DNA of 64,000 nt from the NCBI GenBank assembly GCA_945861715.1, contig CAMAVK010000001.1:1-64000 (forward strand), written 5' to 3'. Position 1 is the stretch's first letter. Each line of letters starts with the position of its first letter. The notes below the pieces were generated by a model. It was given only the letters and a program-made list of their open reading frames with translations. It did no database searches and was not told the DNA's origin. The translations under genes were made by a program, and so were the position numbers. Origin of the DNA: Candidatus Woesearchaeota archaeon. GTDB lineage: Archaea > Nanobdellota > Nanobdellia > Woesearchaeales > GW2011-AR9. Positions 27,220-62,824 of this stretch are shown piece after piece.

Positions 27220-27873
27220 ATGACTCCAAAACAAGAGTCTTCTAAGGCAGCTGAGCCTGAAACCTTAGGAGAACCAGAAGAATTAGAACTCCTTCCACGT
27301 TTAACCCAAGTGGAAGAAAAAGACACTGACAAAAAAGGAAAGAAGAAAAAACCTGTTTTAGGTATCCTTGCTGGCGAACGTGTCATCACTGAAATTTCTG
27401 ATGATGCACGCGAACTCTACAATCAATCCAGATTTGGAAACCTCTCTGAATCAGGAAAAGTAGAACTTTCCTTACTCGAAGCCCTCTATCTTCTTGAACG
27501 TGGCAGATTACTTATCAAAAATGACAGTGGACGTGAAGTCATCTTTGAACAGTTCATAAAAAAAGCCCGAAAAGTAGAACCAAACTTCTGGATTCGCTAC
27601 TGCGTATTCCGAGACATCCGAAACCGTGGCTACATAATCAAAACTGCCCTCAAATTCGGAGCTGACTTCAGAGTATATGACCGTGGTGTAAAACCTGGTG
27701 AAGATCACGCGAGATGGATAGTATATCCCGTACATGAAGGTGAAACCCTCACATGGCATGAATGGGCAGCAAAAAACAGAGTTGCGCACTCGACCAAAAA
27801 GCGTCTTCTCATCGCTGTCGTGGACGACGAAGGCGACGTAAGTTACTGGGAAGCGAGATGGGTTCGACCATAA
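27220..27873 (+). CDS. endA: tRNA-splicing endonuclease
   Basis: EndA cuts pre-tRNA at bulge-helix-bulge sites. The C-terminal catalytic domain reads IRYCVFRDIRNRGYIIKTALKFG, a hallmark of the family, and supplies the three catalytic residues: Tyr153 (FRVYDRG), His163 (GEDHARW) and Lys193 or 194 (HSTKKRLLIAV). The 217-residue length fits the alpha4 homotetrameric type rather than the longer double-domain enzymes. The first 45 residues are charged and low-complexity (Glu/Lys), probably disordered. This gene is relevant to the two-intron tRNA-Trp at 62596. It is followed by a poly-T terminator. Confidence 0.95.
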   Translation: MTPKQESSKAAEPETLGEPEELELLPRLTQVEEKDTDKKGKKKKPVLGILAGERVITEISDDARELYNQSRFGNLSESGKVELSLLEALYLLERGRLLIKNDSGREVIFEQFIKKARKVEPNFWIRYCVFRDIRNRGYIIKTALKFGADFRVYDRGVKPGEDHARWIVYPVHEGETLTWHEWAAKNRVAHSTKKRLLIAVVDDEGDVSYWEARWVRP

Positions 27874-33646: not shown

Positions 33647-35908
33647 TTATAATTTCTTCATCCGCAACAAAAGCGCATTCGAAATAACACTCACCGAACT
33701 AAGTGCCATCGCGCCACCTGCAATAATCGGACTAAGTAACCATCCTGTAAACGGATACAATAACCCAGCAGCAACCGGAATACCAAGCACATTGTAAAAC
33801 AATGCCCAAAACATATTCTGTTTAATCTTCGCCATCGTCAATTTAGACAAACGAATAGCACGCGGTACATCCATAATACTATTGCGCATCAATACAATAC
33901 TTCCACTTTCTATAGCTACATCAGTGCCTGACCCCATTGCAATGCCAATATCAGCTACAGCAAGTGCCGGCGCATCATTTACTCCGTCCCCTACCATTGC
34001 AACTTTACCTTTGCGCTGTAACTCTCGAACATGCTTCGCCTTATCTTCTGGAAGAACGGATGCAAAATAATGAGTAATGCCAACTCGCTTCGCAATTGCG
34101 TGAGCAGTACGCTCATTGTCCCCCGTAATCATATACGGAATAATACCCATCTTCTTCAATGCAACAACCGCCTTAGCCGAATCCTCTTTAATCTCATCAG
34201 CTACAGCAATAATGCCAAGTAACTTCTTACCTGACGCAACATACATCACCGTCTTTCCATCCGTTTCAAGCTCACTAACTCGATTCTCAAGAGATCCAAA
34301 CACAACACTAGACATTTGCATCATCGCTTTATTACCAATAATATAGGATACCCCAGCAACACTTCCAACAACTCCTTTACCCGGAGTCGCTTTAAATGTA
34401 CCAACAGTAACCAACTGAATCTTCAACTCTTCAGCCCGCGCAACAATAGCATCCGCCAAAGGATGTTCTGATTTCTTCTCAATACTCGCAGCAGCCTTTA
34501 ACATGCGATCCGCATCAACCCCAGCAGAACATACAATCTCCGTAACTCGAGGCTTACCAACAGTAAGAGTACCCGTCTTATCAAACACAACAAATTTTAT
34601 TTTATGAGCCGTCTCAAGTGCATCTCCACCTTTAATTAAAATTCCATATTTCGCACCCATTCCCGTTCCAACCATAATAGCTGTAGGTGTTGCAAGGCCA
34701 AGCGCACACGGACACGCAATAACCAAAACAGATACCGCAGCAACTAAAGCAAACGCAAGACCAGCACCAGCAAAAACATACCACACTAAAAACGTCACAA
34801 TAGCAATCAACACAACAACTGGAACAAAATAACCTGAAACCATATCAGCAAATCGTTGAATAGGTGCTTTACGTGTTTGCGCATCTTCTATTAATTTAAT
34901 AATACGTGAAAGCGTCGTATCAGCACCAACCTTCGTAGCCTTAAATGAAAAATTCCCATGCTTATTTATTGTTGATCCAATAACCGCGTCGCCCTTCTTC
35001 TTCTCAACAGCAATACTCTCACCAGTTACCATACTCTCATCAATTGAGGAATAGCCAGATACAATTACCCCATCAACAGGAATTTTCTCACCAGGTTTCA
35101 CCACAACAATATCCCCAACAACAACAGAATCAATACTAACCTTCTCCTCTTTCCCATTACGAACAACCGTGGCAAATTTCGCTCCAATTTTCATCAACTT
35201 TGAAATAGCTTGTGACGTCTTACCTTTCGCCATCGCTTCTAGATATTTCCCAAGTAATACTAATGTTATCAACACGGCTGATACTTCAAAATACTGTTCA
35301 GATCCAAACCCAAAAGCAACTCCGAAAATGAGCACAAACGCCGAATAGAAATACGCAGCACTTGTTCCAAGCGCAATTAACGTATCCATATTTGCGGACT
35401 TATTTTTAAGCGCAGCCCACGCACCAGTATAAAATCCTCGACCAATATAAAACTGAACAGGAGTAGAAAGTGCAAACAATATCCATAACCGATATGGAAC
35501 ATCCATAAACACCATCCCAAGAAGAAACGCAGGAACTGCAAAGACCGCACTCAAAATAACAGTAAATTTCAACTCTCGTAATTCCCTACGTTTCATCATC
35601 TCAGCAGAATTACTCTTCCCATGATCTGACCCACCAGTAGATTGATCAACAGCACCATACCCTTTTGATTTAACTGCAGAAATAAGAGCATCAACAGACA
35701 CCAAAGACGAATTATATGAAACATCAGCTTTTTCCGTAACAGAATTTACAACTGCAGATATAACTCCTGGTACTTTAGTAAGCGCACGAGTAATAATAGT
35801 AGAACAACTCGCACAATGCATCCCACTAATAAGGAGGGTAGCATGATTATCTTTACTCTTTGGGCTACTAACCTGAATCCTATTAGTCTGAGTAATTTGA
35901 TTTTTCAT
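33647..35908 (-). CDS. copA: Copper-transporting P1B-type ATPase
   Basis: The 753-residue protein exports Cu(I) using ATP. It has an N-terminal HMA domain (GMHCASC, Cys32 and Cys35), eight membrane helices, the CPC motif in [15 protein letters not shown], the actuator TGES ([11 protein letters not shown]), the phosphorylation site DKTGTLT and the [10 protein letters not shown] hinge. [11 protein letters not shown] is the HP-locus. CPC with the HP-locus indicates the Cu(I) class. ATG 35908, with GGGG 11 bases upstream, is preferred; ATG 35923 is an alternative, and more upstream starts would overlap the regulator gene. The operon runs from the ArsR gene to the CopZ-like gene. Confidence 0.95.
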
Positions 35909-62560: not shown

Positions 62561-62570
62561 TTAATAAATA
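62561..62570 (+). promoter_or_regulatory. TATA box of the tRNA-Trp gene
   Basis: TTAATAAATA is centred about 30 bases before the tRNA start at 62596, the normal archaeal spacing. Confidence 0.5.
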
Positions 62571-62633
62571 ATTCTCTGCAAAAGCATCTATAAGTGGGGA
62601 TGTAGTATAACTAGGTAGAATAAGGGCCTCCAG

Positions 62634-62683
62634 AAATTGGAGAGATGAGCGAAATTCGCAATGAAAAAATCTTCCCTGAAGCA
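62634..62683 (+). other. tRNA-Trp intron 1, canonical site 37/38
   Basis: The 50-base insertion lies between position 37 (G633) and 38 (A684). It contains hairpins such as GCGAA-A-TTCGC (62649-62659). The boundary is set by the canonical loop and stem pairing. Confidence 0.7.
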
Positions 62684-62704
62684 AGCCTTTGATCTGGGTT
62701 CAAA

Positions 62705-62738
62705 AACCAAGTGAACATATTGTACATTTGATTGACTC
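62705..62738 (+). other. tRNA-Trp intron 2, within the T loop (59/60)
   Basis: The 34-base insertion lies inside the T loop. A bulge-helix-bulge-like fold can be drawn: T stem as outer helix, TCAA (62700-62703) paired with TTGA (62732-62735), three-base bulges AAA (62704-62706) and CTC (62736-62738), and an internal stem CAAGTG/CATTTG. Confidence 0.7.
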
Positions 62739-62824
62739 TCCCAGCATCCCCACTATTTCTCTATAAATTTCTTGAAAGCATCTCTAAAATCCACTCAAAG
62801 CCTATCAGAATCACAAAACACTAA

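Follow-up and report, generated by a model that had tools for sequence, protein, structure and literature searches.

The segment 62596-62752 on the plus strand of the window, i.e. of the entire 64,000-nt stretch of Woesearchaeota DNA analyzed here, is very probably a functional, single-copy tRNA-Trp(CCA) gene with its own promoter and with two bulge-helix-bulge (BHB) introns, one at the canonical position 37/38 and one in the T loop at position 59/60, which would be cut by a single tRNA-splicing endonuclease (EndA) and joined by RtcB. The presence of these two introns, already proposed in the original prediction, is backed by homologous genes with and without the T-loop insertion as well as by the BHB anatomy of the insertions.

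Structure of the tRNA-Trp gene

The gene and its upstream element comprise the following parts.

62561..62568, plus strand: promoter element TTAATAAA, TATA-like and some 33 nt ahead of tRNA-Trp, assigned by comparison with homologues
62596..62633, plus strand: tRNA-Trp exon 1, positions 1-37, with the acceptor 5' strand, the D arm, the anticodon CCA and G37 (BHB search, match of covariance model R2)
62634..62683, plus strand: intron 1, 50 nt, canonical 37/38 intron with a conserved box C/D-like core (BHB search; conserved in about 25 relatives)
62684..62704, plus strand: tRNA-Trp exon 2, positions 38-59, 21 nt, one variable-loop position being empty (BHB search)
62705..62738, plus strand: intron 2, 34 nt, T-loop intron at 59/60 (BHB search; BHB pairing)
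62739..62752, plus strand: tRNA-Trp exon 3, T60 to A73, with the T-stem 3' strand, the acceptor 3' strand and the discriminator A (BHB search)

The acceptor stem is formed by GGGGATG (62596-62602) and CATCCCC. The anticodon stem AGGGC/GCCTT encloses CTCCAG, the 50-nt insertion and A38, and the two strands of the T stem, CTGGG (62694-62698) and CCCAG (62740-62744), lie 41 nt apart. Excision of 62634-62683 and 62705-62738 leaves exons that sum to 73 nt and restores a standard tRNA with the T loop TTCAAAT and the anticodon CCA. Thus, all coordinates of the anatomy first described for this gene (a 7-bp acceptor stem, a 50-base insertion at 37/38, T-stem strands 41 bases apart, excision of 34 bases, a 73-base tRNA) hold. 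The D stem is weak at one place, where a G.A opposition occupies 10-25. Among the 30 homologous tRNA-Trp genes compared here, most have TTAATA or a close variant about 30-35 nt upstream.

A BHB-guided search was carried out without supplying coordinates. It returned exactly the same two introns, 62634-62683 and 62705-62738, with a score of 40.1, as compared to 26.9 for the next-best solution in the same stretch, 26.3 for the best of 160 random window segments and 24.1 for the best of 80 shuffles. ARAGORN reported no tRNA gene in the window with its intron options on or off, and the tRNA-Trp gene was missed by Rfam at the gathering threshold; both programs miss it because of its two introns. 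A covariance model (R2) was built from 18 spliced tRNAs of the same genome, 16 of them out of intron-containing genes. It matches the tRNA-Trp at 44.5 bits (E ~1e-8), the spliced tRNA-Trp itself being among the 18 training sequences. An intact second tRNA-Trp gene, which would speak against the proposed structure, did not turn up in the genome (1.3 Mb, 8 contigs) by DNA search or with R2, the genome being about 98% complete, so that a further tRNA-Trp gene could lie in a gap.

The 37/38 intron of the window gene has three of four central BHB pairs. In about 25 relatives this intron keeps a D'-C'-like core, TTGAGC...GCGATGA; in the window copy the D' box is degenerate (ATGA). A TGGAG within the intron is complementary to C32-A36, and in this pairing C34 is matched to the fifth base ahead of D'. 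The same TGGAG can pair with CTCCA, which would give a competing hairpin. The tRNA-Trp 37/38 intron of euryarchaea embeds a box C/D sRNA that guides 2'-O-methylation, as cited in PMC3218864. The Woesearchaeota intron resembles it in the D'/C'-like boxes and in the placement of TGGAG relative to C34, and differs in the ATGA at D' and in that a D-box guide for position 39 is not recognizable; the 5' C box and the D guide are poor, and the intron has no Rfam match. Judged from these motifs, the intron is likely a C/D guide that would direct methylation to C34, like its euryarchaeal counterpart. In one relative (L137) the 37/38 intron measures 86 nt and carries about 38 extra, hairpin-forming nucleotides that separate the D'- and C'-like boxes and may themselves be an intron inserted into the first one.

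Distribution of T-loop introns

A DNA search of 78 genomes from this family and order yielded 29 further readable tRNA-Trp genes, and hence a set of 30 including the window gene. With the T arms of L133 and L138 classed by eye on account of a T-stem G.U pair, 14 of the 30 genes carry a 59/60 intron, seven a 53/54 intron, and nine are uninterrupted with an ordinary 7-nt T loop. The 59/60 class, to which the window gene belongs, has 16-45 extra nucleotides between A59 and T60. These insertions are very different in sequence and length, are located at the same point and always show BHB spacing. Two species of one genus are particularly informative: exons and 37/38 intron of their tRNA-Trp genes (L125 and L131) are near-identical, and a clean 21-nt 59/60 insertion is present in L125 and absent from L131. 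This is the pattern expected of intron gain or loss, and it identifies the uninterrupted T loop as the functional form. Thus, where retention of the insertion in homologues had been named as an observation that would contradict an intron, a precise absence was found in some species instead.

In the 53/54 class (L124, L128, L132, L133, L136, L137 and L138), about 26-32 nt are inserted between G53 and T54 with a BHB of their own, TCTG pairing with CAGA. The 53/54 and 59/60 introns are apparently independent insertions within one tRNA. The genes L133 and L136 contain a D-loop insertion besides, i.e. three introns in one tRNA-Trp gene. An assembly artefact was considered for the T-loop insertion and rejected, since in independent genomes this point is occupied by insertions that differ in sequence; a self-splicing intron was rejected on length (34 nt).

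The T-loop intron is no curiosity of a single gene. In the window's own genome it occurs in at least nine tRNA genes, and it recurs across the family. With R2, further 59/60 introns were located in at least eight genes, namely those for tRNA-Thr(GGT), Lys(TTT), Ile(TAT), Glu(TTC), Ala(GGC), Cys(GCA), Arg(GCG) and Gln(CTG). In a hand count of 30 tRNA genes, a list that is probably incomplete, several isoacceptors being missing from it, introns were found in about 28; Thr(CGT) and His(GTG) are the ones without. Altogether about 37 introns were counted in the 30 genes (about 1.2 per gene), about 24 of them in anticodon loops, nine in T loops and four in D loops. Intron densities obtained with tRNAscan-SE 2.0 are 0.84 per tRNA gene for Thermoproteales and 0.21 for archaea overall (PMC8450103). 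In a relative assembled in two contigs (G015), five or more T-loop introns occur, together with several in D loops.

Several observations on individual genes of this genome are added here. D-loop insertions of about 18-31 nt are present in tRNA-Glu(CTC), Glu(TTC), Arg(TCT) and Arg(TCG) (L163, L167, L171 and L018), with similar ones in G015; they are probably BHB introns, too. The 3' end GAATG|T is common to four T-loop introns, those in the genes for Thr(GGT), Lys(TTT), Ile(TAT) and Gln(CTG) (L020, L023, L165 and L026). Copying of introns between tRNA genes has been described in Thermoproteales, and by analogy the common end may reflect such copying. On contig C3, a partial second 3' half of tRNA-Ser with an intron end (L013, about 34375-34391) lies beside tRNA-Ser(TGA) (34490-34594), just downstream. 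It has an insertion near the variable arm, and might be what is left of a duplication, one half of a split tRNA or the footprint of an integration event. The tRNA-Ile gene L165 has the anticodon UAT, which is uncommon and also occurs in N. equitans and Korarchaeum (PMC8450103).

BHB anatomy of the T-loop introns

Introns of the 59/60 class use the T stem as their outer helix, and T54-R57 together with four intron bases forms the central helix, flanked by two 3-nt bulges with a predicted cut after the second base. In intron 2 of the window gene, the central helix (62699-62702/62733-62736, TTCA versus TGAC) has three of four pairs, with a T54.C mismatch. The bulges are AA|A and TC|T and the spacing is exact. 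The inner helix (62706-62713/62725-62732) has seven of eight pairs and is also present in the minimum free energy (MFE) fold of the T arm, in which the central helix is open as a 6x6 internal loop. The missing pair and the open central helix in the MFE fold make this a slightly relaxed BHB.

The same anatomy was assessed in 22 T-loop introns, nine from the own genome and 13 from relatives. All 22 have at least three of four central pairs at exact BHB spacing, whereas shuffled introns reached a mean of 4.2 of 22 and a maximum of 11 in 5000 trials. The central pairs add up to 77 over the 22 introns (null 37 +/- 4.3), and intron shuffling gives P ~5e-5 for the nine introns of the own genome alone. 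Full pairing (4/4) is found in nine of the 13 introns from relatives and in two of the nine from the own genome; for three of these fully paired relatives' T-arm RNAs the MFE fold was computed, and it is the BHB. It had been assumed initially that a T-loop intron needs an enzyme tolerant of relaxed BHB motifs. The fully paired introns show that the position alone does not impose this; the window copy is one pair short.

Splicing of the tRNA-Trp precursor would then proceed as follows. The precursor would be transcribed from its own promoter, and in the T loop TTCA (54-57) would pair with TGAC of the intron end next to the T stem as the outer helix. Both 3-nt bulges would be cut after the second base (AA|A, TC|T), a single EndA, most likely a homotetramer, would cut both introns, and RtcB, a gene for which is present in the genome, would ligate the exons. 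As alpha4 EndA is described as limited to canonical BHB (PMC4033280, PMC6379350), precedent does not guarantee that the cutting would be efficient.

The splicing endonuclease and the introns it would cut

The following EndA gene is located in the window.

27220..27873, plus strand: EndA, tRNA-splicing endonuclease, 217 aa, with Y153/H163/K194 and without a Crenarchaea-specific loop (PF01974/PF02778 profiles, alignment)

The closest relatives of this protein, about 60-80% identical, are nearly all from Woesearchaeota or Nanoarchaeota MAGs. The genome has one PF01974 and one PF02778 match, an EndA beta subunit was not found in it with these two profiles, and nearly all of the 78 family and order genomes have exactly one PF01974 match. 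The earlier statement that the only EndA is of the alpha4 size is thus right by these counts. In an alignment with the M. jannaschii and A. pernix enzymes, the catalytic residues Y153, H163 and K194 are invariant in 81 of 81 Woesearchaeota sequences. Broad-specificity EndA, either (alpha beta)2 with CSL or epsilon2 with ASL, is marked by an 11-18-residue specificity loop with a conserved Lys at the CSL/ASL site. A loop of this type is absent from all 81 sequences, in which the distance from G73 to E87 spans 14-15 residues as compared to 24 in A. pernix. Judging from its sequence, the Woesearchaeota EndA is therefore probably an alpha4 enzyme without CSL or ASL. In the stretch that separates the catalytic Tyr from the His, residue 158 is Lys (Arg in two of the 81 sequences), is Asn in M. 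jannaschii and is missing in A. pernix, and K158-P159-G160 is nearly invariant in Woesearchaeota EndA. Speculatively, K158 is a candidate for a CSL-like role.

The alpha4 EndA of M. jannaschii (PDB 1a79) is likewise a single PF02778 and PF01974 chain of similar core size with Tyr-His-Lys, an acidic C-terminal segment and no specificity loop. In contrast to it, the Woesearchaeota protein has an N-terminal extension of about 45 residues, Lys-rich just before the core, and Lys or Arg instead of Asn at residue 158; the tRNA genes of Woesearchaeota are also far more intron-rich, with introns at non-canonical positions. The (alpha beta)2 enzyme of N. equitans (PDB 3iey) is the closest DPANN relative with a solved structure, and its alpha chain aligns over the core. 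In N. equitans, however, the enzyme includes a beta subunit (NEQ261), and the insertion between catalytic Tyr and His is longer; neither feature is seen with the Woesearchaeota EndA.

Crenarchaeota and Nanoarchaeota are known to have introns at 59/60 and 53/54 as well as more than one intron per tRNA (PMC4090602), and non-canonical BHB introns at these two positions occur in Thermoproteales, other Crenarchaeota and Nanoarchaeota (PMC4090602, PMC4033280). The window intron thus belongs to a known kind, sharing with those introns the positions, the BHB anatomy, the 37/38 intron in the same gene and the presence or absence between close relatives. What differs is the host, Woesearchaeota, in which the one EndA gene has no Crenarchaea-specific loop and a beta subunit was not detected. 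Abundant non-canonical introns have been tied to (alpha beta)2 or epsilon2 EndA with specificity loops (PMC4090602, PMC4033280, PMC6379350, PMC12397907), and the alpha4 and alpha2 enzymes of euryarchaea to canonical BHB only (PMC4033280, PMC6379350, PMC12397907); Korarchaeum is the stated alpha2 exception, and there the loop is present (same three sources). Many T-loop introns beside a loop-less single-gene EndA are unexpected and do not fit the rule given in these reviews. A literature search found no description of tRNA introns in Woesearchaeota or DPANN, most subscription papers being outside its reach.

Several other explanations have to be weighed. That the T-loop insertion is no intron, in which case the gene would be a tRNA-Trp pseudogene or one in decay, or the mature tRNA would keep the insertion, might be suggested by the central-helix mismatch and the weak D stem (G10.A25) of the window copy. 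We consider this highly improbable, given that this is the sole tRNA-Trp gene found, with intact exons, promoter element and T-stem complementarity. Retention is further contradicted by the 14 of 30 genes with differing insertions at one point with BHB spacing, and by the precise absence in a sister species (L125 versus L131). If a diverged beta subunit had escaped the sequence searches, EndA would be an (alpha beta)2 enzyme like that of Nanoarchaeum equitans, and a tolerance for non-canonical introns would have the customary explanation. The EndA core is equally close to N. equitans alpha (3iey_A, E 3e-35) and M. jannaschii alpha4 (1a79, E 2e-35), N. equitans is the nearest characterized relative, and G015 has a very weak second PF01974 match (E 0.014). 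Against such a subunit stand the PF01974 and PF02778 counts given above and the acidic segment near the EndA C terminus, which is M. jannaschii-like and resembles neither A. pernix alpha nor N. equitans alpha. Moreover, the window EndA matches the N. equitans beta chain at 7e-14, so that a comparable beta subunit should have been picked up. We thus consider an overlooked beta subunit unlikely.

The T-loop introns might also be essentially canonical BHB motifs relocated within the tRNA, in which case the loop-less EndA would need no broadened specificity. Half of the 22 T-loop introns with four of four central pairs and 5-bp outer helices, and the agreement of the MFE fold with the BHB in the fully paired examples examined, point in this direction. 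However, three of four central pairs are found in seven of the nine T-loop introns of the own genome, in nine of its 15 scored anticodon-loop introns and in the Trp 37/38 intron, and the 16-nt introns of L122 and L126 are so short that an inner helix hardly fits, or does not fit at all (bulge-helix-loop type). We regard relocation as a real possibility, somewhat short of probable. A further reading, that Woesearchaeota have a homotetrameric EndA which cuts relaxed BHB introns in anticodon, T and D loops without CSL or ASL, by means of another element, e.g. K158-P159-G160 or the Lys-rich N-terminal tail, is likewise a real possibility, somewhat short of probable.

Overall, tRNAs that are essential can escape the standard gene finders in these MAGs, as illustrated by ARAGORN reporting none in the window. 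If true, the homotetramer reading would break the rule that non-canonical tRNA introns go together with loop-bearing (alpha beta)2 or epsilon2 enzymes. Thirteen T- and D-loop introns together with a loop-less single EndA mean either that the enzyme is more tolerant than believed or that the introns spread while near-canonical.
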